A DNA stretch of 64,000 bases, from NCBI RefSeq assembly GCF_001552735.1, contig NZ_BCRT01000016.1, positions 186,001 through 250,000 on the forward strand, written 5' to 3'. Position 1 is the first letter of the stretch; the number at the start of each line of letters is the position of its first letter. The translations under genes and the position numbers were made by a program. The notes under the pieces are model-generated. The model was not told the DNA's origin. It did no database searches and saw nothing but the letters and a program-made list of their open reading frames with translations. This document shows, piece after piece, positions 15,631 to 53,723 of this stretch. The stretch is from Sanguibacter suarezii NBRC 16159. Lineage in GTDB: Bacteria; Actinomycetota; Actinomycetes; Actinomycetales; Cellulomonadaceae.

Positions 15631-16665
15631 ATGCCTGTCCATGACGACGTCGCCGCACGGCCGAGGAACGCCACGCTCAAGGACGTCGCCGCTCTCGCCG
15701 GGGTCTCGGTGGCCACCGCCTCCAAGGCGCTCAACGGCAAGGGCAACGTCCACCCGGACACTCGCCGCAGGGTGGTCGAGGCGGCTGAGCGCATCTCCTT
15801 CACGCCCAACCAGCTCGCCCGGGCCATCGTCGGCAAGCAGACCGGGACCGTGGGGCTGCTCACCCACGACCTCGAAGGACGGTTCTCCCTGCCCATCCTC
15901 ATGGGTGCCGAGGACGCCGTCGGCGCGGACCAGATGTCGGTGTTCCTCTGTGACGCCCGCGGCGACACGATCCGCGAGCAGCACCACCTGCGGGCGCTGC
16001 TCTCGCGCCGCGTCGACGGTCTCATCGTCGTCGGCGGGCAGACCGACGCGCGCCCCACCCTCGGGCGCAACCTGCCGGTCCCGGTGGTCTACGCCTACGC
16101 GCCCTCCCTCGACCCCGCTGACGCCTCGGTCATCCCTGACAACACCCACGGCGGCACCCTCGCCGCCCAGCACCTCGTGGCGACCGGCCGGCGTCGCATC
16201 GCCCACATCTCTGGCGACGTCGCGTACCTCGCGGCTCGCGAGCGCAGCGAGGGCGTGCAGCTGGCGCTGACCGCCGCGGGGCTCTCGCTCGCCGGGGGCG
16301 AGGTCCTCTACGGCAGCTGGTCGGAGGCCTGGGGCCGCAGCGCCGCTCTCACCCTCCTCGACCGCGACCCCCACATCGACGCGATCGTCTGCGGCTCCGA
16401 CCTCATCGCCCGCGGCGCCCTGGAGGCGCTGCGCGGGCGCGGCGTCGACGTCCCCCGCGATGTCGCAGTGATCGGCTTCGACAACTGGAAGGTCCTCGTC
16501 GAGGGCTCACGCCCCGCACTGACCAGCATCGACATGAACTTCGAGGCCCTGGGCCGCCGCGCCGCCGAACGCCTCATCGACGCCATCGCCGGCCGAGAGC
16601 GCCCCGGCATCGAGACCCTCGACTGCCGGTTGGTGGTGCGGGGTTCTACAACGTACGACGGCTAG
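15631..16665 (+). CDS. LacI family transcriptional regulator (arabinoside cluster)
   Basis: 344 residues: N-terminal HTH (NATLKDVAALAGVSVATASK, residues about 13-33) with hinge helix FTPNQLARAIVGKQT, then a periplasmic-binding-like sugar domain (VGLLTHDLEGRFSLPILMG to the C-terminus). ATG at 15631 with GGGAG eight bases upstream is preferred to earlier codons that precede the HTH. It is divergent from the ABC/GH127 operon, which it most likely represses until an arabinoside-derived inducer binds. About four fifths of its residues match the LacI protein at 52689-53723, which has the same length; the HTH helices are nearly identical, so both may bind the same operators. Confidence 0.92.
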   Translation: MPVHDDVAARPRNATLKDVAALAGVSVATASKALNGKGNVHPDTRRRVVEAAERISFTPNQLARAIVGKQTGTVGLLTHDLEGRFSLPILMGAEDAVGADQMSVFLCDARGDTIREQHHLRALLSRRVDGLIVVGGQTDARPTLGRNLPVPVVYAYAPSLDPADASVIPDNTHGGTLAAQHLVATGRRRIAHISGDVAYLAARERSEGVQLALTAAGLSLAGGEVLYGSWSEAWGRSAALTLLDRDPHIDAIVCGSDLIARGALEALRGRGVDVPRDVAVIGFDNWKVLVEGSRPALTSIDMNFEALGRRAAERLIDAIAGRERPGIETLDCRLVVRGSTTYDG

Positions 16666-16751: not shown

Positions 16752-17486
16752 TCAGGTCGTGGCGGCCGTAAAGAACACCGGGTCACTCCACCCTGCGCTG
16801 ACCGTCCAGAGTCCGTCGGCGCCCGCCGGGACCGCGACGCACGTGTTGCCCACGGCAATCCCGCCGGCGTAGAGCTCACCAACGTCGTTGAGCGAGTCGG
16901 GGATCACGCCGCAGCTGTCGGAGTACGTCACGCCGTCCGACCCGACGAAGGCGACCCGCAGGTCGAGCCACGCGGTGCCGGTATCCGCCCCCGTGTAGGT
17001 CGCCGACACCGGGACGATGTAGAACTCGAAGCCCGCGGTGGGCGGAGAGTTGAACTGGTTCTCGGCCGAGACCTCTGCCGCCGCTTCACGCGGGGCGGAG
17101 AGGACTACGGACCAGTCGTCGTTCCCGACCGTCTCACCGATCGCATACGGGTTGGCACGAGTCCCTTCCGCGGCCGCTGGCGTCGCGGAGGGCTCCGGGG
17201 TGGGTTCGACCGTATCCACGGTCTCCTGCTCGGTCGTTTCCTCCGTGCCCGAGGTCGTTGCGGCAGCCGATGAAGTGGCCGTCACCTTCCCCGAGTCGGT
17301 TTCTCCCCCGCCGGCTCCGCCGATGCCGATCCCGATGACGAGGCCGACAGCTCCGCTGATCGCGCCCACAAGCACGGGCCGTGACTTCTTGGGCTTCTTC
17401 GCGGGAGGGGCAGGGAACTGTGGTGCAGGCGTCAAGGGCTGTGAGGCCGGCGGGCCGGGCTGGGGCAGGTGATCAGTCATGGTCAT
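16752..17486 (-). CDS. Single-pass membrane protein with DUF4352-like extracellular domain
   Basis: 244 residues: proline-rich cytoplasmic part (residues 1-35), basic KKPKKSR, one glycine-rich helix (VLVGAISGAVGLVIGIGIGG), a Thr/Glu/Pro linker, and a C-terminal domain of about 130 residues with two cysteines (SDSCGVIP and GNTCVAVP) that could form a disulfide. The domain resembles DUF4352-type immunoglobulin-like lipoprotein domains (VYIVPVSATYTG, VGNTCVAVPAG), which is a tentative call. Two in-frame ATGs (17486 and 17480) are possible starts; GAAGAG is better spaced for 17480. Function unknown; it lies at the left edge of the R-M island. Confidence 0.7.
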   Translation of the reverse strand: MTMTDHLPQPGPPASQPLTPAPQFPAPPAKKPKKSRPVLVGAISGAVGLVIGIGIGGAGGGETDSGKVTATSSAAATTSGTEETTEQETVDTVEPTPEPSATPAAAEGTRANPYAIGETVGNDDWSVVLSAPREAAAEVSAENQFNSPPTAGFEFYIVPVSATYTGADTGTAWLDLRVAFVGSDGVTYSDSCGVIPDSLNDVGELYAGGIAVGNTCVAVPAGADGLWTVSAGWSDPVFFTAATT

Positions 17487-17540
17487 CTCTTCTCTTCGAG
17501 AGTCTGTGTGCGGACGGGCAGCCGGACGGTAGCGACAGCC

Positions 17541-17822
17541 TCAGAACCGCGGCAGGCCCAGGAGGTTGTTGCTCTCCCGCCCGTCCGCGACCGTCGTGAT
17601 GTACGGCCGGCCAGATGAGCTGGTTGCGGCGATGACCGGAGCCTCGGCCCCTGTCTGGTCGTTGTGTGTCCGGTAGGTGTGTCCGGCACGGATCTCGGCG
17701 GCGACTCCCTCACGGGTGGCGGTGAATACCGCGCCCGAGGTCGAGAACGCGTATTTGACCGAGCTGATGTGTTCGTTGCGGGTACCGGGTGAGTCGACGT
17801 GGACCGCACGGATGTACCTCAT
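17541..17822 (-). CDS. DUF3892 family small protein
   Basis: 93 residues starting MRYIRAVHVDSPGTRNEHIS, the typical DUF3892 opening, with VKYAFSTSG, an AGHTYRTHN segment and the C-terminal YITTVADGRESNNLLGLP. ATG at 17822 has AGGAG eight bases upstream; the codons before it are not conserved. The function of the family is not established. It is divergent from the R-M operon, separated by about 180 bp that hold an inverted repeat. Confidence 0.8.
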   Translation of the reverse strand: MRYIRAVHVDSPGTRNEHISSVKYAFSTSGAVFTATREGVAAEIRAGHTYRTHNDQTGAEAPVIAATSSSGRPYITTVADGRESNNLLGLPRF

Positions 17823-17917
17823 GGGTTGCTCCTTGCCTGTGTTGGAAGACCACGCTGCGGGCCTTCTCACTGGTCATGAAGGTAGAGAGACTCTGGACCG
17901 GCGACAAGAGAATCGGC

Positions 17918-17933
17918 GATAAGCCCCCTTATC
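17918..17933. promoter_or_regulatory. Inverted repeat GATAAG-CCCC-CTTATC before the R-M operon
   Basis: Perfect 6-bp arms around CCCC, 69 bp upstream of the first R-M operon gene and between it and the divergent DUF3892 gene. A plausible operator for control of the operon; no regulator is identified, though the HTH of the adjacent 704-residue protein is a candidate. Confidence 0.4.
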
Positions 17934-18001
17934 ATCGACAGCGCCTCTGGGGCTCCGACCTCCCGTACGATCAACCCACAGGCCAACGAGAGGAGACCGC
18001 A

Positions 18002-20116
18002 GTGACCAGCACGTCCGCCTCCTCCACGACACTGACCCCCGCCACGATGTCACTGTCGGACGTCGCTCGTCTGGCCCGCGTCCAGCGTCCGGTCGTCACC
18101 ACGTGGCGCAGGCGCAAAGCGCACACCACCCAGCCCTTCCCCGCACCGATCGACCCGACCAGCTCACGCCCACTCTTCGACGCCCTAGAGGTCGTGGAGT
18201 GGTTGGAGGAGACGGACCTGGGCAACAACCGGGAGGTCCGCGCGGATGCTGCTGCCTTCACCCAGCTGCCGGTCCCCTTCGCAGGACCGGACGGTGCAGG
18301 TCACCTCGCCTCGCTCTTGTGCCTCAAGGCACTGACCGGAGAGCTCCTGGCCGGCATGACAGGCCCCGACCTGCTTGACCTCGCTGATGAGTGCGATCCG
18401 GGCGACCACTTCCTCTATACCGAGATCGCGGCCGTTGCAGGGCTGACCGCGACGGCACTGGCCACCGCGACAGCTCACGCCGACGCCCTCGCGGACGCCT
18501 GCTTCACCCCTACCGCTGCACTGGAGACTCTTGAGAGGACCGAGCGCATCCGCCGCGGCGACGAGGAGGCGCTCTCCTTCGCGGCCGCGACGCTCATGGG
18601 TGACCTTGCGATCGCGTTGCTCACCAATGACACCGGCGACGCCACGGATTCCGCTGAGGCGTCCTTCATCGATGTCTCTCCTGGCAACGGGGACGTCCTG
18701 CTCGCCGTACGAGACCGCCTGCCCGAGAACATCGAGATGGTCGCCTATACACCGGCCGCCCAGACCGGCCCTGCCTCGCGAGGTGCCATCAGGCGTCTGC
18801 GCTCTCGCGGGATCGGCCACCGTCAGCTGGCCGACGACGCCCAGCCGGGTCTCCTCGCACATTCCGTGGTCGTGGCCCACCTACGCGGCGCTGCGGGTCC
18901 AGGGTCCGTCCTGGACGCAGTCGACAATCTGCTCCTGGAGCTGGGATCCGCCCAGCGTGCAGTCGTTCTTGCCCCCGCCGAGGCTCTGGTCGATCGTCTG
19001 CGAGACCACGCAGACACCAACGCACGGGCTGAGATCTTGCGCTCCGACCGCATCCGGTCGATCGTCACGCTCCCGGCCGGCGGGCTCCCCGGCCGACCGC
19101 GCCAGCATCTAGCCCTGTGGGTGCTTGGCGACGCACACCCGGACGTTCCGAGCGAGCGTCAGTGGACCACGACGGCCGACCTGCGTGACCGCACGTTGTC
19201 CGGCGACGTCACGACCGACCTGGTCAACGACGTCCTGGCCGCACTCGGCAACGAAGACACTGTGCGCTCGCATGCCTTCCGCTTCTCCCGTCGGGTGGCC
19301 GCTCACTCCGTGCGCGCACGCTCACAGCACCTCGTGGACGCACGGCCCCGCCCTCTCGCCTGGACGACCGGAGCAGCCGCTCTGCAGACCGGACCAGATC
19401 TCGCCCTGCGTATCGGCGACCTGGCTCGTCATCTCGACGAGGCCACCCGAACCCTGGTGGCACCGGCTCTCATGGTCGAGACGACTCATGCCGCCGGCGC
19501 GGCTCCCGACATGGGGCCCCGGGGGTCTGTCGAGACCATCGAGGGCCTGCTCGCGTCGGGCGCCCTCGTCCTCGTACCGGGGCACCGACTGGCCTCCGAC
19601 CATCTCACGCCTGGCCGTGGTGCACGGGTCGTCGACGACTCGCTCGACCTCGCGTCGGACCTGTCCATCGACCACCTCACGCTGGCGGCCACGTACCCGC
19701 GGAGCCAGTTCACCGAACCGGGTGACGTGATCTTCGTCGCCGCCGGCAGCCTCCGTGCGGTCGTCGATCCCGACGGCGCATCCCTGGTCCGGTTTCCGGC
19801 TAGGGTTCTGCGGGTGCGCAGCCGAGACGACAAGCAAGGGCTGCTCCCCGACCTGATCTGCCGTGCGATCAATGCCCACGGAGTCGAGCCCAGCCAGCGC
19901 TCGTGGAAGACCACGCCTGTCCCGGTCCTCCCTCGGGACCAGCTCGCTCCGGCAGCGCGCGCCGCACTAGCGGTCGACGACGCACTCGAGGCGTCCCAAC
20001 GCCAGGTCGAGCTGCTGCGCGAGCTCAAAGACCTTGTCCTCGAGGGCACGGCCCGCACCCTGCTCACCTTCGAGCCCACTGCTGACGTCACCGAAGAATC
20101 AACGGAAAGTAGCTGA
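18002..20116 (+). CDS. HTH protein with degenerate N6-adenine methylase fold and HsdS-like C-terminus
   Basis: 704 residues, GTG start at 18002 with GAGGAG upstream. Three parts are visible. Residues 17-40: an HTH (LSDVARLARVQRPVVTTWRR). Residues about 110-420: sequence with the layout of an N6-adenine methylase, where motif I survives as FIDVSPGNGDVLLAV (about 220) but motif IV, normally NPP[FYW], reads VVVAHLRGAAG. Residues about 530-700: a module like a type I specificity/TRD domain (FTEPGDVIFVAAGSLRAVVD, then a C-terminal helix VDDALEASQRQVELLRELKD). It is thus probably catalytically dead. The stop is one base before the HsdM start, so it is part of the operon. Role is unknown: a DNA-recognition or regulatory subunit is an inference. 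Confidence 0.7.
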   Translation: MTSTSASSTTLTPATMSLSDVARLARVQRPVVTTWRRRKAHTTQPFPAPIDPTSSRPLFDALEVVEWLEETDLGNNREVRADAAAFTQLPVPFAGPDGAGHLASLLCLKALTGELLAGMTGPDLLDLADECDPGDHFLYTEIAAVAGLTATALATATAHADALADACFTPTAALETLERTERIRRGDEEALSFAAATLMGDLAIALLTNDTGDATDSAEASFIDVSPGNGDVLLAVRDRLPENIEMVAYTPAAQTGPASRGAIRRLRSRGIGHRQLADDAQPGLLAHSVVVAHLRGAAGPGSVLDAVDNLLLELGSAQRAVVLAPAEALVDRLRDHADTNARAEILRSDRIRSIVTLPAGGLPGRPRQHLALWVLGDAHPDVPSERQWTTTADLRDRTLSGDVTTDLVNDVLAALGNEDTVRSHAFRFSRRVAAHSVRARSQHLVDARPRPLAWTTGAAALQTGPDLALRIGDLARHLDEATRTLVAPALMVETTHAAGAAPDMGPRGSVETIEGLLASGALVLVPGHRLASDHLTPGRGARVVDDSLDLASDLSIDHLTLAATYPRSQFTEPGDVIFVAAGSLRAVVDPDGASLVRFPARVLRVRSRDDKQGLLPDLICRAINAHGVEPSQRSWKTTPVPVLPRDQLAPAARAALAVDDALEASQRQVELLRELKDLVLEGTARTLLTFEPTADVTEESTESS

Positions 20117-20117
20117 G

Positions 20118-21746
20118 ATGCCCCCCAAGAAGAAGGACTCCGCCCCGGCAGTCCCCTCGACCATGAAGGAGCTCAAGGACACACTCTGGAAGGCCGCCGA
20201 CAAGCTCCGCGGGTCGATGGACGCCTCTCAGTACAAGGACGTCATCCTCGGCCTCGTCTTCCTCAAGTACGTCTCCGACGCCTTCACCGAACGCCGCGAG
20301 CAGATCACCGCCGAGCTCACGGCCGAGGGCATGACCCCCGAGCAGATCTCCACCTTCGTCAACGACATGGACGAGTACACCGGCAGCGGCGTGTTCTGGA
20401 TCCCGATCACCGCCCGCTGGGACTACCTCGCAGAGAACGCCAAGGGCCGCCCGGCCCAGGGAAGCGAACCGTCCAAGACGATCGGCGAGCTCATCGACGA
20501 CGCGATGGACCTCATCATGGGCTCCAACTCCGCTCTCCGTGGGACGCTGCCGCGCCTGTTCAACAAGGACAACGTCGACCAGCGGCGCCTGGGCGAGCTC
20601 ATGGACCTGTTCAACAGCGCCCGCTTCACCGGCCAGGGCGCTACGAGGGCCCGCGACGTGCTGGGTGAGGTGTACGAGTACTTCCTCGGCAAGTTCGCCA
20701 GCGCCGAGGGCAAGCGCGGCGGGGAGTTCTACACGCCCCCCGGCGTGGTGCAGGTCCTCGTCGAGGTGCTCGAGCCGCACCAGGGCCGGGTGTATGACCC
20801 GTGCTGCGGATCAGGTGGGATGTTCGTGCAGACCGAGAAGTTCCTCGAGAGCCACGACCGGGACCGCACAGCGATCTCCGTGTTTGGCCAGGAGAACAAC
20901 GAGCGCACATGGCGGATGGCGAAGATGAACCTCGCCATCCATGGCCTCAACGCCAACCTCGGCACCATCTGGGGCGACACCTTCGCCCGGGACCTTCACC
21001 CCGATGTCCAGATGGACTACGTGCTGGCAAACCCGCCGTTCAACATCAAGGACTGGGCCCGGTCCGAGAACGACCCCCGGTGGAAGTTCGGCGTGCCGCC
21101 GGCCGGCAACGCGAACTACGCCTGGATCCAGCACATCATCTCCAAGCTCGCCCCGGGCGGCTCAGCTGGCGTGGTCATGGCAAACGGCTCCATGTCCTCG
21201 AACTCTGGCGGTGAGGGAGAGATCCGTGCCCAGCTCGTCGAGGCCGACCTCGTCTCCTGCATGATCGCCCTGCCCACCCAGCTGTTCCGGTCCACAGGTA
21301 TCCCGGTGTGCACGTGGTTCTTCGCCAAGGACAAGACCGCTGGGCCCAAGGGGTCGGTCGACCGCACCGGTCAGGTGCTCTTCATCGATGCGCGCGAGCT
21401 GGGGCACATGGTCGACCGCGCCGAGCGCGCGCTGTCCGACGAGGACATCGCCAAGATCGCTGGCACCTTCCACGCCTGGCGGGGTACCCCCTCGGCAGTC
21501 GCTGCTGGGTCGATGTACGAGGACGTGCCGGGTTTCTGCAAGTCCGCAACGCTCGCGGAGATCAAGGCGGCTGGCTATGCCTTGACACCGGGTCGGTATG
21601 TTGGCGCGGCTGAGGTGGCCGACGACGGCGAGCCGATTGAGGAGAAGATTGCGCGGTTGTCCGCGCTGTTGTTGGAGCAGTTCGATGAGTCAGCACGACT
21701 CGAGCAGGTCGTGCGCGAGCAGTTGGAGCTGATCGAACGTGGCTGA
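20118..21746 (+). CDS. hsdM: Type I restriction-modification DNA methyltransferase subunit M
   Basis: 542 residues. N-terminal HsdM helical domain (LKDTLWKAADKLRGSMDASQ, then YKDVILGLVFLKYVSDAF), then the N6-adenine methylase domain with SAM-binding motif I DPCCGSGGMFVQ (about residue 227) and catalytic motif IV LANPPFNIKDW (about 305). Together with HsdS it transfers methyl groups from SAM to adenines at the target site, protecting host DNA. ATG at 20118, one base after the preceding stop; its end overlaps hsdS by eight bases, so M and S are translationally coupled. All catalytic motifs are intact. Confidence 0.96.
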   Translation: MPPKKKDSAPAVPSTMKELKDTLWKAADKLRGSMDASQYKDVILGLVFLKYVSDAFTERREQITAELTAEGMTPEQISTFVNDMDEYTGSGVFWIPITARWDYLAENAKGRPAQGSEPSKTIGELIDDAMDLIMGSNSALRGTLPRLFNKDNVDQRRLGELMDLFNSARFTGQGATRARDVLGEVYEYFLGKFASAEGKRGGEFYTPPGVVQVLVEVLEPHQGRVYDPCCGSGGMFVQTEKFLESHDRDRTAISVFGQENNERTWRMAKMNLAIHGLNANLGTIWGDTFARDLHPDVQMDYVLANPPFNIKDWARSENDPRWKFGVPPAGNANYAWIQHIISKLAPGGSAGVVMANGSMSSNSGGEGEIRAQLVEADLVSCMIALPTQLFRSTGIPVCTWFFAKDKTAGPKGSVDRTGQVLFIDARELGHMVDRAERALSDEDIAKIAGTFHAWRGTPSAVAAGSMYEDVPGFCKSATLAEIKAAGYALTPGRYVGAAEVADDGEPIEEKIARLSALLLEQFDESARLEQVVREQLELIERG

Positions 21747-22920
21747 CTACACAGCACTCGGCGAACACGTGAAACTTCAGCGCGGCCAGTCCTACAAGAG
21801 CGCACTTCTTGGAATGGATGGTCCAGTCCTCCTAGGGCTCGGAACGATCCAACGGAATGGCGGTTTTCGAGGCGACAATCTCCGCACCTACGGAGGTGAC
21901 ACTCCAGCACGCACGCGAGTCAATCCTGGCGATTTCTACGTTTCTCTTAAGGACGTGACCCACTCTGCCGATCTCCTTGGAGCTGTCGCCCGGGTCCCTA
22001 TCAGCGTGCCAGCCGGTCGTCTCACTCAAGACACGATGCGCCTTGACATTTCGGAGTCGAACATCGATCGAGACTATCTCTACTGGGCACTCCGAGCTCC
22101 GAATTACAGGGCATACTGCCGAGCTCGAGGCACTGGCACTACAAACCTTGACTTGAGCCAAGCCGATTTCCTGGCGTATCGCCTACGCACGCCTCCTCTC
22201 TCCGAGCAGCGCGCGATCGCTGAGGTGCTGGGCGCACTCGACGACAAGATCGCCGCCAACACCAACCTCGCCACCACCTCCGACGAGTTGGTGCGCGCAT
22301 GGTATATGGGGACATCCGCGAGCGCGGACTCGACGGCGACAATTGCCGAACTGGCAACCCAGCCTCGCGCACTGATAGCACCGTCAGAATTCACCAAAGA
22401 CTTGGCCTATGTCGGCCTCGAGCACGTTCCGCGCCGACAGATGTGGCTGAGTGAATTCGGACCTGCGGAGAGCGTGACAAGCACGAAAACACGGTTCTCC
22501 AAGGGTGACGTGCTCTTCGGGAAACTCAGACCGTATTTTCACAAGGTCGCGGCAACTCCGTTCGACGGCGTCTCATCTACCGACATTCTCGTCGTGCGAG
22601 CTTCAGACACGCTACTCAAGGGCTTCCTCCTTGCCGCACTCGCCTCCGATGCAGTAGTCGAGCGATGTGCCGCCGCGAGCGAAGGGACACGTATGCCCAG
22701 AACGAGTTGGGCGACCCTCTCGTCCATCGAGGTGCCCTGGCCCGGCGAGCAGGCTGCACGAGCAATGAGTAAGCAGATTGACGCCGTGCGCGATCGTGTG
22801 GAAGCCGCACTTGCGGAGAACCGCACCCTCGCTGCAACCCGCGACGCACTCCTCCCCGCCCTCATGTCCGGCACCCTCCGGGTCCGCGATGCCGAACGGG
22901 TCGTCGAGTCCGCGCTCTGA
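21739..22920 (+). CDS. hsdS: Type I restriction-modification specificity subunit S
   Basis: 393 residues, two target-recognition domains each followed by a conserved helix: TRD1 about 1-155, then LSEQRAIAEVLGALDDKIAA; TRD2 about 185-340, then EQAARAMSKQIDAVRDRVEA. GTG start at 21739 inside the end of hsdM. It sets the bipartite target sequence and holds M and R subunits. The DNA of both TRDs (roughly 21760-22170 and 22330-22720) is clearly richer in A/T than the surrounding genes, while the helices return to the local composition, as expected if TRDs were exchanged by transfer. Confidence 0.94.
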   Translation: MADYTALGEHVKLQRGQSYKSALLGMDGPVLLGLGTIQRNGGFRGDNLRTYGGDTPARTRVNPGDFYVSLKDVTHSADLLGAVARVPISVPAGRLTQDTMRLDISESNIDRDYLYWALRAPNYRAYCRARGTGTTNLDLSQADFLAYRLRTPPLSEQRAIAEVLGALDDKIAANTNLATTSDELVRAWYMGTSASADSTATIAELATQPRALIAPSEFTKDLAYVGLEHVPRRQMWLSEFGPAESVTSTKTRFSKGDVLFGKLRPYFHKVAATPFDGVSSTDILVVRASDTLLKGFLLAALASDAVVERCAAASEGTRMPRTSWATLSSIEVPWPGEQAARAMSKQIDAVRDRVEAALAENRTLAATRDALLPALMSGTLRVRDAERVVESAL

Positions 22921-22959
22921 CCTTCCACCTCACGTCACCAGCCTCCAAGGAGTCCCCGC

Positions 22960-23484
22960 ATGTCCGCCCTGCCCCCAGTCCCGCCAGCACCGCCCACCGC
23001 GGAGTCAGCGCCCGCGAGTGCCATTCGCGGCGGATGGGTTCCTGCGTCTCCTGCTTCCCCCTCCCAGCGTCCCGCCTGGCTACTCCCGGTAGCGACCGGC
23101 GTCGTCGGTGCGATCTTCGGGGCGACTGGGATGTTCGTGGTCACCTCGCTCCAGGACTCGTCCAGCGCCCGCGCGGACCGGGCGGTGCTGCTGGATGCGG
23201 CGACGGCTTGCGAGCTCACGAGCACCCCAGGGATCACCCTTGCCGACAAGAACTTGAGCCTGACGTTTAACCACAAGGGCGAGGAAGATTACACAGGTGT
23301 TGAGTTCTCTGACATCGCCTGCCTGCTCGGTGAGCTCAACACGCCGTCCGCGGTGATCTCCCACATGGACCAGACCACCTCACAGGACGGCCGCCAGACC
23401 GAGACGTGGGACAACATCACGGTGTCATGGTCCTACCACCCCAACCGCGGCATGGACGGCGTCCTCGCTGTCACCGCGAACTAG
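22960..23484 (+). CDS. Small single-pass membrane protein in the R-M operon
   Basis: 174 residues: Pro/Ala-rich cytoplasmic segment (1-42), one helix (WLLPVATGVVGAIFGATGMFV), and an extracellular domain of about 100 residues containing two cysteines (TACELTSTPG and IACLLGEL). No recognised family. It lies 39 bp after hsdS and two bases before the nucleotidase start, so it is part of the operon. Function unknown; the layout resembles the DUF4352-like protein at 16752-17486 (Pro-rich tail, helix, two-Cys domain), though the sequences differ. Confidence 0.75.
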   Translation: MSALPPVPPAPPTAESAPASAIRGGWVPASPASPSQRPAWLLPVATGVVGAIFGATGMFVVTSLQDSSSARADRAVLLDAATACELTSTPGITLADKNLSLTFNHKGEEDYTGVEFSDIACLLGELNTPSAVISHMDQTTSQDGRQTETWDNITVSWSYHPNRGMDGVLAVTAN

Positions 23485-23486
23485 AC

Positions 23487-24515
23487 ATGGGATACGACCT
23501 CAGCGAGCGCCTCGTCATCGGCGTAGCGTCTAGCGCGTTGTTTGACCTGACCGAGTCCCACGCGGTCTTCGAGCAGGGCATCGAGGAGTATCGGGCGTTC
23601 CAGGACACACACGTCGGCGACCCACTCCCGCCGGGTGTCGCGTTCCCCTTCATCAAGCGGCTCCTCGGCCTGAATGACCTCCGGTCGGGGAGCAAGCTCG
23701 TCGAGGTCTTCATCCTCTCCAAGAACGACCCGACAACGGGCCTGCGGCTCATGCGGTCGATCGAGCACTATGACCTGGCGATCGAGCGTGCCGCCTTCAC
23801 TCGGGGACGTGCACCGTTCGAGTACATCCCGGCTCTCGACATCTCGCTGTTTCTCTCAGGCAACGAGAACGACGTCAAGGAGGCGATGGCCCTGGGCCAC
23901 CCTGCCGGTTTGGTGCTCGGGTCAGCGGCCGTGGACCACGGCGACGCGGACGACGATGACTCTTTGCGGGTGGCCTTCGACTTCGACGGTGTCATCGCGG
24001 ACGACGGCTCGGAACGCATCTACAAGTCAGGGGACCTCACGTCATTCCTTGAGCATGAGGTCGCCAACCGGTTCACACCACTGCGCCGCGGACCGCTCCG
24101 TGACTTTCTCACCGCACTCAGTCGAGTGCAAGAGATCGAGCGGGTACGTGCCGATTCTGACGGGGGATACTCACCCCGGGTGCGCGTCTCCGTCGTCACC
24201 GCCCGACAGGCGCCCGCCCACGAACGGGCCATCAAGACCCTGCGGAGCTGGAACGTCGAGATCGACGACGCGTTCTTCCTCGGCGGGGTCGACAAGGGAC
24301 GAGTGCTTCGTGTGCTCAAGCCGCACATCATGTTCGACGACCAGCTTGGCCACCTGGACCCGGTAGCCAAGGAGGTTGCCAGCGTCCTTATCCCGTACGG
24401 CGTCTCCAACGAGAGCCCACCGACACCCGGCGAGGGAACGCCCGTCCTGAACGTCGGTGTCGCCGTGGACAGGCCATCACTTCCCACATCCGCTACCGAA
24501 GCAGCCCTCGGGTAG
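23487..24515 (+). CDS. 5'-nucleotidase (cytosolic cN-I-like, PF06189 type)
   Basis: 342 residues. It matches the bacterial cN-I-like 5'-nucleotidases over its length: LVIGVASSALFDLTESHAVFE, PLPPGVAFPFIKRLLGLN, VEVFILSKNDPTTGLRLMRS, the HAD-type acidic motif RVAFDFDGVIADD (about residue 164), VVTARQAPAHERAIKTLRSW and IDDAFFLGGVDKG ... MFDDQLGH. Such enzymes remove the 5' phosphate from nucleoside monophosphates in the cytoplasm. ATG at 23487 follows the preceding stop by two bases. Its position between hsdS and hsdR makes a link to restriction or nucleotide-depletion defence plausible, but this is inference. Family call is strong; substrate unknown. Confidence 0.85.
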   Translation: MGYDLSERLVIGVASSALFDLTESHAVFEQGIEEYRAFQDTHVGDPLPPGVAFPFIKRLLGLNDLRSGSKLVEVFILSKNDPTTGLRLMRSIEHYDLAIERAAFTRGRAPFEYIPALDISLFLSGNENDVKEAMALGHPAGLVLGSAAVDHGDADDDDSLRVAFDFDGVIADDGSERIYKSGDLTSFLEHEVANRFTPLRRGPLRDFLTALSRVQEIERVRADSDGGYSPRVRVSVVTARQAPAHERAIKTLRSWNVEIDDAFFLGGVDKGRVLRVLKPHIMFDDQLGHLDPVAKEVASVLIPYGVSNESPPTPGEGTPVLNVGVAVDRPSLPTSATEAALG

Positions 24516-24618
24516 CTCACACCGACGTCAAGGGTCACTCGACTCCGACAACAACGGTTGGGCAAGAGCGAGACGCGAACCACTGGACCCGATCACCGAA
24601 CCTGCCGATGGAGACAGC

Positions 24619-27600
24619 ATGAACCTCACTGAAGACGCCTGGGAGCAGATGGCGCTCGAGACCCTGGGCGAGCTCGGGTGGGCCCCGCTCCACGGTGCGG
24701 CGATCGCTCCGGGCGGAGCCACGGCGTCGGGCACGGTGGAGCGGGAGTCGTGGGACGAGCTGCTCATCCGGCCTCGGCTGCGCGCGGCGCTCGTGCGGCT
24801 CAACCCGGACGTTCCGCGGGAGTTCCTCGACCAGGCGCTCGACATCATCGCCTCTCCCACCTCCCAGGATGCGATGGCGGAGAACCACCGCATCCACACC
24901 TCCCTCGTGGACGGCTTCCGCGGTGTCACGTACATCGACCACACCGGCACCGAGCAGACACCCACGATCCGCCTGATCAGCACCTCTCCGCACGAGAACG
25001 ACTGGCTCGCCGTCAACCAGGTCACCATCGTCTCCGGGGACCACACGCGCCGCTTCGACGTGGTGCTCTACCTCAACGGCATGCCGGTCGCCGTCGTCGA
25101 GCTCAAGAACGCCGGCAGCGCGCACGCCGATGTCGCCGCCGCGCATGCCCAGCTGCAGACGTACCTGCGCGAGTTCCCGCTCGCCTTCCGCTTCGCGGTG
25201 CTCACCCTGGCCTCGGACGGGATCACCGCCAAGTACGGGACGCCCTTCACCCCGCTCAACCACTTCTCCCCCTGGAACGTCACCGAGGGAGGGGAACCGC
25301 TGTCCGCAGGTGGGGATGCATCCGGCGCTGGCGACACAGATGAGGACACCGGCGCCGAGGACGGCTACGGCGTGCCCACCACCCCGCTCGACCACGCGCT
25401 CTACGGGCTGTTCAACCAGGAGCGGTTCACCCAGCTGCTCATGAGCTACGTCGCCTTCGACCAGAACTCCGGCGGACTGGCCAAGCGGATCGCCAAACCG
25501 CACCAGTACTTCGCGGTGTCCAAGGCCGTGGCCAAGACCGTGCTCGCCGTGGAGAGTAACGGCAAGGCGGGCGTCGTGTGGCACACGCAGGGCTCGGGGA
25601 AGTCGATGGAGATGGAGCTCTACGCCAACCTCGTCATCCGCCACCCCAAGCTGCGCAACCCCACGATCGTGGTGATCACCGACCGCAACGAGCTCGACGG
25701 TCAGCTCTACGAAACCTTCGCCCAATCGCTGCTGCTGCCCGAGGCACCTCGCCAGATCCTGCGCCGTGAGGAGCTGCGCAGCGAGCTCAGCGAACGCACC
25801 ACTGGCGGGATCTACTTCACCACCTTGCAGAAGTTCGGGCTGAGCAAAGCCGAACGGGACGCTGGCGCGGCGCACCCGGTGCTCTCCGAGCGGCGGAACA
25901 TCGTCGTCGTCGTGGACGAAGCGCACCGCAGCCACTACGACAACCTCGACGGCTACGCATGGCACCTCAAGACCGCCCTGCCGCATGCGACCCTCATCGC
26001 CTTCACCGGGACGCCGATCTCCTTCGACGACCGCAACACCCGCGACGTGTTCGGCGACTACATCGACGTCTACGACCTCTCCCGTGCGGTCGACGACGGC
26101 GCAACCGTGCCGGTGTACTTCGAGAGCCGGCTGATCAAGGTGCAGCTCGCCGACGGGCTGACCGAAGAGGATATCGACCGGGCGGCCGACGAGGCGACCG
26201 AGGGTCTCGACGACACCGAGCGGGACCGGATCCAGCAGAACGTTGCGGTGGTCAACGCCGTCTACGGCGCCCCCGCCCGCATCGCCGAGCTGGCATCCGA
26301 TCTGGTCACGCACTGGGAAGCCCGGCGCGCGGCGATGTTCGAGGCGCTCGGGACGTCCGACCGGCCGGCAACTCCCGGCAAGGCGATGATCGTCGGCGCC
26401 ACCCGGGAGATCTGCGCGAATCTCTACGCGGCGATCGTCGCACTGCGCCCTGACTGGCACAGCGACGACCTCACGGCCGGGCGGATCAAGGTGGTGTACT
26501 CCGGGACCGCGAGCGACGCTCTCCCGGTCGCCGACCATGTCCGCCGCGACTCCCAGAACGCACTCATCAAGGGGCGGCTCAAGAACGTTGACGACGAGCT
26601 CGAGCTGGTGATCGTCAAGGACATGATGCTCACCGGCTTCGATGCTCCGCCTCTGCACACCCTGTACCTGGACCGGCCGATCAAGGGCGCGCTGCTCATG
26701 CAGACCCTGGCCCGGGTCAACCGGACCTTCCGCGGGAAGCAGGACGGGCTGCTCGTGGCGTACGCGCCGGTGGCGGACAACCTGGCGCGAGCACTCGAGG
26801 AGTATGTCTCTTCCGGTTCCGGCGATCCGGAGATCACGACCCAGGGCCGGAACCTCGAGGAGGCGGTGGCCCTCGCCCAGACCTTGGTGGAGTCCCTGCG
26901 GGCGATGCTCGACCCGACGAGCTGGCGTGCGCGACTTGCCCGCCCCAGCCCACGGGCCTACATCTCCGCAGTGACAGCGGCAGTCAACTTCCTCCGCGAT
27001 CCGGCCACGCCCGGGAACCAGGTCGCCGAGGGTGAGGAAACCCTCACCGCGCGGTTCCGCAAGCTCTCCGGCCAGCTCGGTCGCGCCTGGGCACTGTGCG
27101 GGCGCGCTCCCGCCCTCGAGAACGTCGCAGACGACGCGCGCTTCTTCGAAGAGGTCCGCGTCTGGATGGCCAAGTTCGACGCCGAGGAACGCCAGGCCCG
27201 CGGTGAGCCCGTACCCGACGACGTCCAGCGCACCCTCAACCGGCTCATGGCCACCGCCGTCGTCTCCGGCGAGGTGCTCGACATCTACGGGGCAGCGGGC
27301 ATGCCCAAACCCTCACTGAGCGACATCAACACCGACTTCATCGCTCGGACCAAGGCCGCCGCGAACCCGCACCTGGCGATCGAGGCGCTGCGTCAGCTCA
27401 TCATGTCCGAGACCCGCGCGGTCACCCGCCACAACGTAGTGCGCCAGCGGGCGTTCTCGCAGCGGCTGCAAGAGCTCATGGTCAAGTACACCAACCAGCA
27501 GCTCACCTCGGCCGAGGTGATCGCCGCGCTGATCGAGGTGGCCAAGGAGGTCGCCGTCGAGGCCGACCGAGGGGCTACGTTCTCCCCTCCCCTGGACTCC

Positions 27601-27888
27601 GACCAGCTGGCGTTCTACGACGCAGTCGCGACCAACGAGTCCGCCGTCGCCGAGCAGGGCTCGGGCGTGCTCGCGGACATCGCGCGTGACCTGGTCGCCG
27701 TCATGCGAGCCGACATCCGCACCGACTGGACCGTTCGCGACGACGTCAAGGCGAAGCTGCGATCGTCGATCAAACGGCTGCTGGTGCGACACGGGTACCC
27801 GCCGGACCAGCAGCCTGAGGCGATCAAGCTCGTCATGGAGCAGATGGAGTCGATCGCTCCGCGGTTCGCGGTGGCGACGACCTCCTGA
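24619..27888 (+). CDS. hsdR: Type I restriction-modification endonuclease subunit R
   Basis: 1089 residues. N-terminal nuclease of the PD-(D/E)xK type (FDVVLYLNGMPVAVVELKNA, about 145-165), then an SF2 translocase: Walker A HTQGSGKSMEME (about 323), DEAH-type box VVVDEAHRSHYD (about 432), motif III FTGTPI, and motif VI QTLARVNRTFRGK. The C-terminal helical region contacts the M2S core. ATG at 24619 with GGAG upstream; 103 bp separate it from the nucleotidase. It cuts unmodified DNA after ATP-driven translocation. The gene appears intact, so the restriction system should be functional. Confidence 0.95.
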   Translation: MNLTEDAWEQMALETLGELGWAPLHGAAIAPGGATASGTVERESWDELLIRPRLRAALVRLNPDVPREFLDQALDIIASPTSQDAMAENHRIHTSLVDGFRGVTYIDHTGTEQTPTIRLISTSPHENDWLAVNQVTIVSGDHTRRFDVVLYLNGMPVAVVELKNAGSAHADVAAAHAQLQTYLREFPLAFRFAVLTLASDGITAKYGTPFTPLNHFSPWNVTEGGEPLSAGGDASGAGDTDEDTGAEDGYGVPTTPLDHALYGLFNQERFTQLLMSYVAFDQNSGGLAKRIAKPHQYFAVSKAVAKTVLAVESNGKAGVVWHTQGSGKSMEMELYANLVIRHPKLRNPTIVVITDRNELDGQLYETFAQSLLLPEAPRQILRREELRSELSERTTGGIYFTTLQKFGLSKAERDAGAAHPVLSERRNIVVVVDEAHRSHYDNLDGYAWHLKTALPHATLIAFTGTPISFDDRNTRDVFGDYIDVYDLSRAVDDGATVPVYFESRLIKVQLADGLTEEDIDRAADEATEGLDDTERDRIQQNVAVVNAVYGAPARIAELASDLVTHWEARRAAMFEALGTSDRPATPGKAMIVGATREICANLYAAIVALRPDWHSDDLTAGRIKVVYSGTASDALPVADHVRRDSQNALIKGRLKNVDDELELVIVKDMMLTGFDAPPLHTLYLDRPIKGALLMQTLARVNRTFRGKQDGLLVAYAPVADNLARALEEYVSSGSGDPEITTQGRNLEEAVALAQTLVESLRAMLDPTSWRARLARPSPRAYISAVTAAVNFLRDPATPGNQVAEGEETLTARFRKLSGQLGRAWALCGRAPALENVADDARFFEEVRVWMAKFDAEERQARGEPVPDDVQRTLNRLMATAVVSGEVLDIYGAAGMPKPSLSDINTDFIARTKAAANPHLAIEALRQLIMSETRAVTRHNVVRQRAFSQRLQELMVKYTNQQLTSAEVIAALIEVAKEVAVEADRGATFSPPLDSDQLAFYDAVATNESAVAEQGSGVLADIARDLVAVMRADIRTDWTVRDDVKAKLRSSIKRLLVRHGYPPDQQPEAIKLVMEQMESIAPRFAVATTS

Positions 27889-27918
27889 CGTCCTGTCCCT
27901 ACGAACAATGGAGTCCTC

Positions 27919-29732
27919 GTGTCGAATGAACCGATCTTGCTGCTCTTGCACGGCGTGGGACAGGGCGACCGGGACGGGACGTGGCAGGCCACCTGCTCCG
28001 AGGCTCTGGTCCGCCTCGGGTACCCGGACCTGGAGAACGTGCAAGTCATTGCTCCCCAGTTCGCGCACGCCCTGAAGGGTGTCGATGAGCCGCGGCCGCT
28101 CCCGCCCGTGACGACAAAGCAGCTCTCCCGGGAGGCAGCCAAGAAGAACCGGCGAGGCTTCGAACGCCGCATGGGAGCCATCGAATTCCGACTGGGGCGC
28201 CCTGACCGCGGTCAGGGCCGGGTGGGCGGCGACGCCGCGGTACGCGCGGCCTACGAACATCTCAAGGCTGTCGAACAAGCGAAGACTACCTCGAAAATCC
28301 AGAGATTCGCGCGCAGGTCCTGCACCGCGTTCTCGCCAAGCTTCCGGAGTCAGGCCGGGTCGTCATCATCGGCCACAGCCTCGGCTCCGTGATCGGCGCT
28401 GACCTCCTGCGTCACCTGCCCGCGTGGCTCGACGTCGCCGGCATGGTGACGATCGGCAGCCCGTTGGCTCACGGAACCTTCGACGTCGACCGCCTCCGAG
28501 AGTCCCTCACAGAGCCGCCGACGAACCTAGCCTGGTGGGTCAACTTCTGGAACCCCCAGGATCCCGTGGCCGCACGCCGAGGCGTGTCATCCGTCATTCC
28601 GTGGATGACTGATTTCCGGATATCGACGAAGAAGGTGCTCATAGCCGCCCACGCGGCGACGGAGTACCTCAGCAATGAGTCCGTAGCTACCGCCGTCGGG
28701 TTCGCTCTGTTTGGCTCCAGGTCCAAAGAGATCGCGGTCCTCGACAGGGGGGTCGATATTCCCTTGGAAGACACAGAACACTGGGCTCTCATGGCCCTGC
28801 GGTACGCGCACCTTGTGATGGCGGAGCTGACAGGCGATCAACGAGATCGGTTCGCCGGAGCCCTTCGTCAGGCGCAAGCGGAAACCATCGAGAAGATCAA
28901 GACCCGCAATGCCAGCGAGCACAGGCCGATGCCCTCCCCCGTTGCACGACTCGCATTCGATCTGTCCGATCCACAAGCAACTGTTCCGGTGCCGCTTCCG
29001 GTGAGCCATATCGCAAAGGACGACGCCGCTCTCCTGTTGACGGTCCTCGCGGCAGCGAATGTCGTTCAACCGTATGAACTCTCGATCTCACCGGCGATCC
29101 GGCAGCAAGCCATGGAGCATCTCACGGCCGAGATGGGGTTGGGCCACCAGTACGGCACCGATGTCTTCACAGCCGCCAAGCGCGCACGGGAGGCCCTGAG
29201 CAGCAACGGTGGAGTGAACTGGATCAAGTGGGGCGCCCTCGGCGTGGGTGCATTCGCGATTGTCGCCGCGACCGGAGGGTTGGCTCTGGCAGCCGCCCCC
29301 GGTGTTGCCGGGGGCGCAGTGATCACCAGTGCACTGGCGAGCTTTGGCCCCGGAGGGATGATCGGAGGACTGCTCACAGCAGGCACTCTCGTCACTGCGG
29401 GTGGCAGCGGCATCACCTATGGTCTCGCCAGTTCCGGAACCACAGCACAGGCCCTCGAAGAGGTCGTCGTGGGCCGGTTGGCCGCGGCAATCCTGCGGCA
29501 GCTGCAGCACCTCGAACCGGACCCGAGCGTGTACAGCGCCTTGATCGAGCTCGAGATCGAGGTCCGCCGGAACCACCAGCGGCTGAGCGCATTCTCCGAT
29601 GAGTCGGCGCCCGCGCTGGGAGAGCTCCAGCGCAAGATCAGAACTGTCGAGCGCGCACTGAAGTACTTGACGGACAACGATCTAGCGCCAGCTGTTCGCT
29701 CCGAGCCTCCCGCACAGCAGGTACTCGTCTAG
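27919..29732 (+). pseudogene. Alpha/beta-hydrolase with C-terminal membrane segment, split by a -1 frameshift
   Basis: Two reading frames together make one protein of about 604 residues. The first (GTG 27919 to 28392) begins NEPILLLLHGVGQGDRDGTW, the oxyanion-hole strand of a lipase-like fold. The second continues from about 28281 (EDYLENPEIRAQVLHRVL) through the nucleophile elbow VVIIGHSLGSVIGAD and VTIGSPLAHG to 29732. Inserting one base near 28280 (GC to GCN) joins AVEQ-A-EDYLENP smoothly, so a single base is missing here. A Gly/Ala-rich hydrophobic stretch of about 70 residues (near 29232-29445) is probably a membrane hairpin, followed by a helical tail. It sits 30 bp after hsdR. Either inactivated or a sequencing error; substrate unknown. 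Confidence 0.75.
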
Positions 29733-29771
29733 GGCCGCGCTGGCGCACGCTGGCTGAAACCATATCCACAG

Positions 29772-29794
29772 TTGACACTTCAGAACATGTTCTG
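29772..29794 (+). promoter_or_regulatory. Promoter -35 box with perfect palindrome before the Phd-like gene
   Basis: TTGACA (29772-29777) is a consensus -35 box. CAGAACATGTTCTG (29781-29794) is a perfect 14-bp palindrome in the spacer, 12 bases before the start codon. This is the arrangement expected for autorepression by a Phd-type antitoxin. Confidence 0.6.
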
Positions 29795-29806
29795 ACTGCT
29801 CGAAGC

Positions 29807-30352
29807 ATGTCCACCACCCGGATCCGCGCCGACGTCGTCCAACGCACCGTCGCATCGTCGGACCTGGCCCGATCGCCCGCGGCTGTCTTCGCTTCAGCCG
29901 AGGACGGGCCGGTCACCATCACCCGCCGTGACGGTGAACCGTTCGTCTTGACCACCAAGAAGCGTGACGACGAGACCACAGCGATCCTCCACCTCGCAGC
30001 CCAGCTCATCGCGGTGTCCCTCGCTGAGAACTCAGCCCCGTTCACAGTGAGGCTGCGCACCCCCTTCCCGTGGATCGCGGTGCTCAGCCCCGAGGACCAG
30101 GACTCTTTTGCGGACGAGATCCTCACGACGGCACGCGCCTGCTTCAGCCTCGGGCAGATGGACTCTCTACTCCACACGGTGCACGCCTGGCATGAGACTG
30201 CCGCTGCGGTCGCCGAGGGCTGGGACAGAGCGCCTGTCGACTGGCTCGATGAGTCCACACCGGTTGACGACCCGCGGGGACTAAGGACGCACAACGACAC
30301 CACCCACACAGGTCACCCCAACCCACTGCCCTCCACCCTCCGCCTCCACTGA
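29807..30352 (+). CDS. Phd/YefM-like antitoxin-domain protein
   Basis: 181 residues. The first 50 (SSDLARSPAAVFASAEDGPV, then TITRRDGEPFVLTTKK) match the DNA-binding fold of Phd/YefM antitoxins; the remaining 130 residues are helical with no recognised family and are much longer than a usual toxin-binding tail. The ATG at 29807 has only a weak ribosome site, so the mRNA may be nearly leaderless. No toxin gene follows: the next gene, kdpE, is convergent. It may be an orphan antitoxin or a regulator built on the Phd fold. Confidence 0.7.
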   Translation: MSTTRIRADVVQRTVASSDLARSPAAVFASAEDGPVTITRRDGEPFVLTTKKRDDETTAILHLAAQLIAVSLAENSAPFTVRLRTPFPWIAVLSPEDQDSFADEILTTARACFSLGQMDSLLHTVHAWHETAAAVAEGWDRAPVDWLDESTPVDDPRGLRTHNDTTHTGHPNPLPSTLRLH

Positions 30353-52688: not shown

Positions 52689-53723
52689 GTGGCACCGCAC
52701 GACGACGCGACCGCACGTCCCCGCACGGCCACCCTCAAGGACGTGGCGCAGCTCGCCGGGGTGTCGATCGCCACCGCCTCCAAGGCCCTCAACGGCCGTG
52801 ACAACGTCCACCCCGACACCCGGCGCCGCGTCGTGGAAGCCGCCGAGCGGATCTCGTTCACCCCCAACCAGCTCGCTCGCAGCATCGTCGCCAAGCAGAC
52901 CGGCACGATCGGCCTGCTCACCCACGACCTCGAGGGCCGGTTCTCCATCCCCATCCTCATGGGCGCCGAGGACGCGGTGGGAGCAGGTCAGATGTCGGTG
53001 TTCCTGTGCGACGCCCGCGGCGACTCCATCCGCGAGCAGTACCACCTCAAGGCGCTGCTCTCCCGCAGGGTGGACGGACTCATCGTCGTCGGCGGCCGGA
53101 CCGACCCCCGCCCGTCCATCGGCCGCGCGCTGCCGGTTCCCGTGGTCTACGCCTACGCCCCGTCCCTCGACCCGGCCGACTGCTCCGTGATCCCGGACAA
53201 CACGAGCGCCGGGTCGCTCGCCGTCCAGCACCTCGTCTCGACCGGGCGGCGGCGTATCGCCCACGTCTCCGGCGACGTCACCTACCTCGCGGCGCGTGAA
53301 CGCGCCGCAGGAGCGGTGCACGCCCTGGCCGGCGCGGGTCTCGAGCTGGCCGGGGGCGAGGTGCTCTACGGCAGCTGGTCTGAGGCCTGGGGCCGGTCCG
53401 CCGCGCACACCTTGCTCGAGCGCGACCCTGAGATCGACGCGATCCTGTGCGGCAGCGACCTCATCGCCCGGGGCGTCCTGGAGACGTTGCGGGACCGCGC
53501 GGTCGACGTGCCGCATGCCGTGGCGGTCATGGGCTTCGACAACTGGGACGTCCTGGTCAGCGGCGCCCGCCCGCCGCTGACCAGCGTGGACATGAACTTC
53601 GAGGCCCTCGGCCGCCGCGCAGCGCTGCGGCTGCTGGAGTCCATCGCCGGCGAGCACCACTCCGGCGTCGAGCAGCTCGACTGCCGGGTGGTGGTCCGCG
53701 GCTCCACCGCCTTCGACGGCTGA
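52689..53723 (+). CDS. LacI family transcriptional regulator (paralogue of the 15.6-kb LacI)
   Basis: 344 residues, GTG start at 52689. HTH TATLKDVAQLAGVSIATASK, hinge FTPNQLARSIVAKQTG, then sugar-binding domain (IGLLTHDLEGRFSIPILMG to VVRGSTAFDG). Same length as, and about four fifths identical to, the regulator at 15631-16665; the differences cluster in the ligand domain. It stands directly after the GH74 gene, so it may control glucan genes, while its twin serves the arabinoside cluster; shared operators would let them cross-regulate. It ends six bases from the convergent phosphatase gene. Confidence 0.92.
   Translation: MAPHDDATARPRTATLKDVAQLAGVSIATASKALNGRDNVHPDTRRRVVEAAERISFTPNQLARSIVAKQTGTIGLLTHDLEGRFSIPILMGAEDAVGAGQMSVFLCDARGDSIREQYHLKALLSRRVDGLIVVGGRTDPRPSIGRALPVPVVYAYAPSLDPADCSVIPDNTSAGSLAVQHLVSTGRRRIAHVSGDVTYLAARERAAGAVHALAGAGLELAGGEVLYGSWSEAWGRSAAHTLLERDPEIDAILCGSDLIARGVLETLRDRAVDVPHAVAVMGFDNWDVLVSGARPPLTSVDMNFEALGRRAALRLLESIAGEHHSGVEQLDCRVVVRGSTAFDG

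Follow-up and report, generated by a model that had tools for sequence, protein, structure and literature searches.

A degenerate methylase-like protein as putative controller of an actinobacterial type I restriction-modification operon with an exchangeable cargo slot

We analysed a stretch of 64,000 nucleotides from Sanguibacter suarezii NBRC 16159 (assembly GCF_001552735.1, contig NZ_BCRT01000016.1, positions 186,001 to 250,000), hereafter the window, in whose coordinates all positions are given. It belongs to the 3.80-Mb genome of a high-GC actinomycete and contains an island around type I restriction-modification (R-M) genes at 16752 to 30352. The gene that precedes hsdM in this island encodes a degenerate methylase-like protein, here called P1, and we consider it likely that P1 is a dedicated controller which arose from a type I methylase and acts via a palindrome upstream of its gene, while a slot beside hsdR exchanges cargo genes. 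The original prediction for this DNA had counted the degenerate methylase among several extra genes of the operon and missed it as a controller; together with its operator it appears to be the constant and more surprising built-in gene. HsdM, HsdS and HsdR are present intact with their domains, as that prediction had stated, and the island is therefore a type I R-M system predicted to methylate and cleave a bipartite target. The core features are as follows.

17918 to 17933, no strand assigned: operator-like palindrome GATAA-N6-TTATC, 84 bp 5' of the P1 start
18002 to 20116, + strand: P1, with an N-terminal helix-turn-helix (HTH), an HsdM-like domain without catalytic motifs and a half-HsdS; proposed controller (structure model, Foldseek, HsdS profile)
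20118 to 21746, + strand: hsdM, intact (PF02384, N6_Mtase, E 3e-112; HsdM_N, E 4e-27)
21739 to 22920, + strand: hsdS, intact (Methylase_S, E 4e-8; PADLOC Specificity_I, E 2e-78)
24619 to 27888, + strand: hsdR, intact (TIGR00348, E 1e-130; PADLOC REase_I, E 8e-231)

The 297 genomes of the order were searched for HsdM without reference to P1. P1 stood upstream of HsdM, with no gene called between them, in all 26 loci with an HsdM identity of at least 61% (the window counted), which bears out the degenerate methylase as a built-in part of the operon. The next 11 loci, at 52-57% HsdM identity, yielded no P1, whether from the gene calls or with 100 P1 sequences as queries. Scanning named genomes gave 213 stretches encoding a P1 relative, the nearest being that of Sanguibacter gelidistatuariae (79% identity), and in 75 of the best 80 of these 213, which were analysed, an HsdM match lay downstream of P1; the five stretches without one are L190, L192, L203, L194 and L207, the contig ending in the last two. 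After 8 duplicates were dropped, the 107 loci collected comprised 99 non-duplicate ones, and 6 without a callable hsdM were also dropped. The distance between P1 and hsdM has a median of 2 bp in 92 loci and is at most 120 bp in 87 of them, the largest gap being 3112 bp (L185). By gene content, these type I R-M systems form a separate lineage, found mostly in actinobacteria, whose standing genes number four: P1, hsdM, hsdS and hsdR. Two loci of unusual setting were encountered. In Mumia quercus (L190, 10004-12055), an orphan P1 with its operator has no match to hsdM, hsdS or hsdR within the 22-kb locus. Another P1-hsd locus (L188) stands in a record of Sporosarcina, a genus of Bacillota, with an HsdM 80% identical to that of the window, indicating either a recent transfer or a mislabelled record.

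Counting words in the DNA upstream of P1 brought out the pair GATAA and TTATC, separated by a constant distance. Of 94 such regions, 84 contain GATAA-N6-TTATC exactly and 90 with at most one mismatch, against expectations from Markov shuffles of 0.0 and 0.1 per set, respectively. When spacers of 0 to 11 were tested, only 6 (84 regions) and 5 (one region) occurred, and the extended consensus is YGATAA-N6-TTATCR. Five of the 99 non-duplicate loci fell outside this count, namely L071, which has no upstream DNA, and L086, L087, L149 and L203, in which P1 is below the label threshold and which also carry the exact palindrome. The compared loci (1.86 Mb) contain 87 exact palindromes in total, and the 3.8-Mb window genome contains one, at 17918-17933. 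Among the 297 genomes of the order, exact YGATAA-N6-TTATCR was found in 21 of 25 P1-bearing genomes (P1 match with E below 1e-10) versus 27 of the 272 others (Fisher 2e-15). As expected of an R-M controller, a conserved operator-like site thus precedes the R-M genes. Since 14 other aligned HsdS proteins are only 25-31% identical to that of the window while the site is constant, the palindrome is probably not simply the methylation target of the system. The palindrome is AT-rich within GC-rich DNA and lies in a divergent promoter region, as would a promoter element or the site of a global regulator rather than an operator for P1; this is very unlikely given that the window genome holds a single exact copy, that the link to P1 across genomes is strong and that none of 13 type I loci with an HsdM relative but no P1 contains the palindrome. 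Away from P1 loci, one identical 18-bp palindrome, TGATAAAACGTTTTATCA, occurs in seven genomes (G037, G096, G110, G124, G269, G279 (genus g31) and G183:C26), where it is probably the site of another regulator.

P1 comprises 704 amino acids and gave no family above threshold in Pfam, NCBIfam or PDB sequence searches; PADLOC returned a weak match to PDC-M06B (E 0.0013, residues 6-83), and a Pfam scan of 24 P1 members yielded HTH_17 in one and an unrelated family in another. No HTH_3 match was obtained at E 0.01 in P1 or these 24 members, and this, together with its length, rules out P1 as a classical C-protein, a small single-domain Xre HTH protein. In an AlphaFold (AF2) model with a predicted local distance difference test score (pLDDT) of 82.4 and a predicted template modelling score (pTM) of 0.62, P1 starts with a winged HTH at the N-terminus, which is followed by a helical part and then a methylase-like domain; its C-terminal part contains a long helix. 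The eight best Foldseek matches to this model are all methylase chains, of type I or similar (E 3e-13 to 5e-10), the matches including 7eew (E 3e-13), 3lkd (E 2e-11) and PacII 7vru (E 7e-11), and a viral fold library likewise matched mainly with methylases. The template modelling scores are low (0.28-0.36 by query length in the first ten), so the whole-chain arrangement of P1 is unmatched. The C-terminal part aligned with an HsdS profile at E 3e-5 and 72% probability. To look for catalytic residues, we used the pattern [NSD]PP[FYW] for motif IV and a pattern for motif I, both checked on HsdM copies. Motif I is present in 101 of 103 HsdM copies versus none of 91 P1 copies, and motif IV at the aligned place in 103 of 103 versus none of 91; in two P1 copies (L074, L172) an SPPW lies a few residues past that place. 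Since all 91 copies lack motif I and the aligned motif IV, P1 is rejected as an active N6-adenine methylase. Conservation within P1 peaks in the HTH core (0.67 versus 0.23-0.50), and the HTH-type helices of the model would provide this R-M-linked protein with the DNA-binding domain that a controller needs. We read P1 as a dead methylase with a half HsdS and an HTH. No description of P1 was recognised in the literature searched, which left subscription papers mostly outside and did not include the palindrome as a query, so that absence from print is not established.

With its HsdM-like and half-HsdS parts, P1 could also be a non-catalytic structural subunit, an M2-like partner of HsdM on HsdS, with some other regulator reading the palindrome. 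Systems with two M proteins exist, such as PacII M1M2S (PMC9613975). There, however, M1 and M2 are assigned N6-methyladenine (m6A) and N4-methylcytosine (m4C) modification (PMC9613975), whereas P1 has no motifs and has an HTH, and the palindrome is retained even in L190, where P1 is an orphan with no hsd match in 22 kb. A structural role for P1 is therefore unlikely in our estimate.

Restriction genes provide a second setting for the palindrome. Both ends of the interval between hsdS and hsdR, hereafter the slot, are present in 74 of the 99 non-duplicate loci; the gap is at most 300 bp in 28 of them, and the slot is filled in 46. Within 400 bp upstream of hsdR, a palindrome with at most one mismatch occurs in 10 of 48 filled-slot loci versus none of 28 empty-slot loci. 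Of 1037 control genes, chosen to start more than 1200 bp from P1 and more than 700 bp from hsdR, 3 have it, and two of these three genes flank a single palindrome at the start of a rearranged hsdR-P1-hsdM-hsdS operon in L179. Shuffles expect 0.05. The recurrence before hsdR links the palindrome with how the restriction genes are expressed, yet 38 filled loci have no such copy.

In the mechanism we propose, P1 would sit as a dimer on the bipartite palindrome YGATAA-N6-TTATCR, located between its own gene and the divergent ones, and from there set the expression of the P1-hsdM-hsdS unit, by repression or by activation; where cargo separates hsdR from this unit, P1 would set hsdR separately through the second palindrome copy. 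Modification and restriction would then stay balanced while the cargo changes. P1 as the binder of the palindrome, and a transcriptional nature of the effect, are what we infer from the sequence comparisons. Several observations weigh against a P1 controller acting at this site. Another protein could bind the palindrome. Four of the 94 P1 upstream regions have no clear site (L080, L179, L183, L185), the palindrome of L183 lying 502 bp from the called P1 start and L179 having a one-mismatch form at the operon start. The 38 of 48 filled-slot loci without a second site before hsdR include the window. Two one-mismatch sites lie elsewhere in the window genome, one of them 76 bp before a gene for 125 amino acids, and 27 genomes without a strong P1 match carry the palindrome, some of them having weak P1 matches. 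On the side of the protein, hhalign gave P1 versus HsdM a probability of only 0.5% (E 0.13), so the relation of P1 to methylases rests on the structure model, in which the pTM leaves the placement of the domains unsure; in addition, the half-HsdS is also conserved, which makes it ambiguous which part of P1 would contact DNA.

A variant of the proposal turns P1 into a decoy methylase and a sensor of restriction inhibitors. As a dead HsdM-HsdS protein, it would still read its ancestral bipartite target, kept as one exact operator copy, and DNA mimics would pull it off, switching on R-M together with toxin cargo. Phage DNA-mimic proteins such as Ocr or ArdA bind type I methylases. We regard the decoy as quite improbable and retain P1 as a dedicated controller acting through the palindrome.

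The slot differs in content from locus to locus. Slot representatives were named by Pfam and PADLOC and the remainder by BLAST against these representatives. Closed slots contained the YhcG nuclease (15), a 5'-nucleotidase (NT5; 8, with 2 more in open loci), the small protein Mem of the window (7), HipA (5), Schlafen AlbA_2 (4), Fic (4), Abi_2 (3), HigBA-like pairs (2), T5orf172 (2) and others. At least one toxin, abortive infection (Abi), nuclease, GTPase or NT5 gene is present in 38 of the 46 filled slots (36 when GTPase and NYN are omitted), 3 hold nothing but Mem-type genes or lack any such family, and 5 remain unclassed. In the sister species S. gelidistatuariae (L129), HsdR is 93% identical and Mem is the same, and a HigB/HigA-M78-like pair takes the place of the window NT5. 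On this comparison, the interval separating hsdS from hsdR, together with the space behind hsdR, forms a cargo slot in which toxin, Abi and nuclease genes are repeatedly exchanged, and the cargo may act against phage. In the slots of L142, L153, L145 and L064, the YhcG (DUF1016) cargo is reduced to its C-terminal nuclease part or to smaller remnants, as if decaying. Downstream of hsdR in another P1 locus (L062, 17741-19900) stands a JetC (Wadjet) gene. The cargo might be made up of passengers, collected at a tolerated spot in a mobile defence island that takes any gene, with no functional link to R-M. Some slots do hold apparently metabolic or unclassified genes (L081; the 5 unclassed of 46), and cargo is often on the opposite strand, but the families in 38 of 46 filled slots and the palindrome copy that hsdR has of its own in 10 of 48 filled loci make pure passengers somewhat unlikely.

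In the window, the cargo consists of three genes.

22960 to 23484, + strand: Mem, slot gene for 174 amino acids with one hydrophobic segment and two cysteines
23487 to 24515, + strand: 5'-nucleotidase (NT5, HAD), exchangeable slot cargo (PF06189, E 7e-117; HAD motif VAFDFDG retained)
27919 to 29732, + strand: alpha/beta-hydrolase with a GHSLG motif and a glycine-rich hydrophobic stretch, interrupted by a frameshift in the assembly

Mem, announced as a small two-cysteine membrane protein, has this size and both cysteines, its hydrophobic segment being barely over the cut-off, and no family reached threshold in Pfam, PADLOC or NCBIfam. It is found in the slot of 7 of 92 loci and is 79% identical at the equivalent place in L129. 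NT5 matches PADLOC PDC-S08 over its full length (E 1.4e-127, profile 15-317 of 323); no tested mechanism for PDC-S08 was found, although one was hardly searched for. Ten of 92 loci have NT5 in the slot, a distribution that needs 9 changes on a quick HsdM tree of the 92 P1 loci. NT5 as a fixed operon part was rejected on its presence in only 10 of 92 loci. Of 27 genomes with an NT5 match, 3 have it inside a P1 locus, 22 were examined outside P1 loci and 2 weak matches were left out; in the 22 genomes there was no match to the window HsdM, HsdS or HsdR near NT5, which suggests that outside P1 loci NT5 mostly stands alone. The slot nucleotidases are not one clade, as a quick tree of 32 NT5 sequences needs 3 changes, all forced by starred branches, and a single clade was rejected on this count. 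They are nonetheless clustered (0 of 500 shuffles as low), and some may therefore travel between hsd loci.

The hydrolase gene consists here of two overlapping open reading frames, 27919-28392 and 28389-29732, with GHSLG in the second, and is a single frame in the nearest relative, L129, and in L063, L109, L110, L111 and L163. It had been described as a lipase-fold protein. The GHSLG motif agrees with this, but all matches to alpha/beta-hydrolase families are below threshold (Abhydrolase_6 best at E 0.0012; PGAP1 at E 2e-4 in an intact relative), and the structure model is poor (pLDDT 58), which leaves the lipase identity unproven. The gene is found in 2 slots (L063, L163) and directly after hsdR in 2 more loci, the window being one, and adjoins in L110 and L111 a gene for a Swt1-HEPN/DUF4011/MTES_1575 protein (HEPN/helicase/nuclease; PADLOC PDC-S37).

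It had been proposed that the extra genes form a coupled defence module. Of these genes, P1 does accompany hsdM, hsdS and hsdR elsewhere (26 of 26), but NT5 (10 of 92), Mem (7 of 92) and the hydrolase (2 slots, and 2 loci directly after hsdR) do so only in places. NT5 and the hydrolase could nevertheless be coupled effectors whose action kills or starves the cell once restriction is blocked, after the manner of PrrC in EcoprrI. Like known embedded effectors, they would be encoded within the hsd operon, NT5 between hsdS and hsdR and the hydrolase directly after hsdR. The place between hsdS and hsdR is also that of DarTG2 (PMC12255303), an hsd operon harbours prrC (PMC3874165), and toxin, Abi and nuclease genes abound among the slot cargo of other loci. 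NT5 matches PDC-S08, two NT5 matches besides the window fall in P1 loci versus a rough expectation of 0.012, and the hydrolase adjoins a PDC-S37 protein. On the other side, NT5 changes often on the HsdM tree, is absent from the sister-species slot and is mostly alone elsewhere, and the hydrolase is split in the window. We hold coupled killing or starvation to be doubtful. By analogy with PrrC and DarTG2, coupling to restriction through nucleotide depletion or membrane damage on restriction failure is possible; on their distribution, NT5 and the hydrolase are two of many exchangeable cargo genes.

The remaining features of the island lie at its edges.

16752 to 17486, - strand: Lpp, small exported or membrane-anchored protein, divergent from P1 (homologue 84% identical at the equivalent place in S. 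gelidistatuariae L129)
17541 to 17822, - strand: DUF3892 protein, divergent from P1 (PF13031, E 1e-11)
29807 to 30352, + strand: Phd-like protein, weak call, island edge (PF02604, E 0.012, below the Pfam cut-off)

The DUF3892 gene was thus recovered as predicted; a gene is indeed present at the Phd-like flank, but its family match is below the cut-off. Genes of the compared loci were called by an in-house codon-usage script, so starts and small genes there are approximate. P1 and the gene next upstream are divergently oriented in 86 of 90 loci, and DUF3892 matches number 17 within the first two divergent genes on that side. Lpp-like and Mem-like proteins recur divergently upstream of P1, and a divergent protein with a hydrophobic segment is among the first two upstream genes in 68 of 90 P1 loci, an enrichment of no more than moderate size (42 of 86 first genes and 46 of 78 second genes, versus 191 of 535 in the control). 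An exported partner may share the operator with P1. The spacings from P1 to the hydrolase (1, -8, 39, 2, 103 and 30 bp) fit the single operon suggested for 18002-29732. A pattern scan gave no promoter-like sites and 9 terminator-like sites versus 4.8 in shuffles, two of those on the + strand lying within hsdM (21651) and within the nucleotidase gene (24254). The G+C content of the island is 63-69% versus mostly 68-74% in the rest of the window, which has a further low-G+C stretch (67-68%) at 45-50 kb. In two genomes of the same genus (G197, G299), kdpE directly adjoins the homologue of the window gene 8443-10179, so that about 10211-30352, the sugar-uptake cluster plus the R-M island, is missing there at this site. 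The sister species S. gelidistatuariae (G298) has an R-M locus at the equivalent site followed by homologues of ZorA, ZorB, ZorC and ZorD; these Zorya type I homologues (L212, G298:C9, 7713-14819) adjoin the hydrolase gene on its downstream side, a place taken in the window by the Phd-like gene and kdpE. A second LacI-type regulator of the window (52695-53720) is 81% identical to the one beside the island (15631-16665).

Transcriptional control of type I R-M systems is little known, according to a 2025 review (PMC12707154), and P1 with its site is probably a regulatory component of a new kind in a widespread bacterial defence. If the proposal is true, a methylase has been reduced to a regulator, which suggests how restriction could stay coordinated while toxin or defence genes are swapped into the middle of the operon. 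The co-occurrence of P1 and the 16-bp site in about 90 loci makes the question directly testable, and the pair is a simple marker for locating such cargo slots in actinobacterial genomes. The gene prrC is reportedly placed within the EcoprrI hsd operon. Embedded genes of this kind are otherwise represented by PrrC in EcoprrI (PMC3874165), by DarTG2 between hsdS and hsdR (PMC12255303), a position shared with Mem and NT5 of the window, and by the Campylobacter rlo/mlo genes between hsd genes (PMC5183652); in contrast to these, a single R-M lineage here has different cargo at different loci (74 closed slots; NT5, HipA, Fic, YhcG, Schlafen-type and others). NT5 matches nearly the whole length of the PADLOC model PDC-S08. 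PacII M1M2S, a non-canonical type I system (PMC9613975; structures 7vru, 7vs4), also has two HsdM-like proteins and is among the folds closest to P1, but modification is assigned to each of its M proteins, whereas P1 lacks motifs and has an HTH and a half-HsdS of its own. Dedicated regulators encoded with R-M genes, as proposed for P1, include the C proteins, HsdC of Mollicutes (PMC5282649) and RptR (PMC12255303). RptR is encoded by the first gene, before hsdM, as is P1; however, RptR has 9 kDa (PMC12255303) and C proteins are small (PMC3978073), while P1 has about 700 amino acids with an HsdM/HsdS-like body. M.SsoII and M.Ecl18kI are methylases that autoregulate via an N-terminal region, with a 15-bp quasipalindromic regulatory site in the R-M intergenic region (PMC3978073), and P1 would likewise be methylase-like with a DNA-binding region at its N-terminus. 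Unlike P1, which is type I-like, motif-less and encoded beside a separate intact HsdM, M.SsoII belongs to a simple R-M pair and is active as a C5-methylase.

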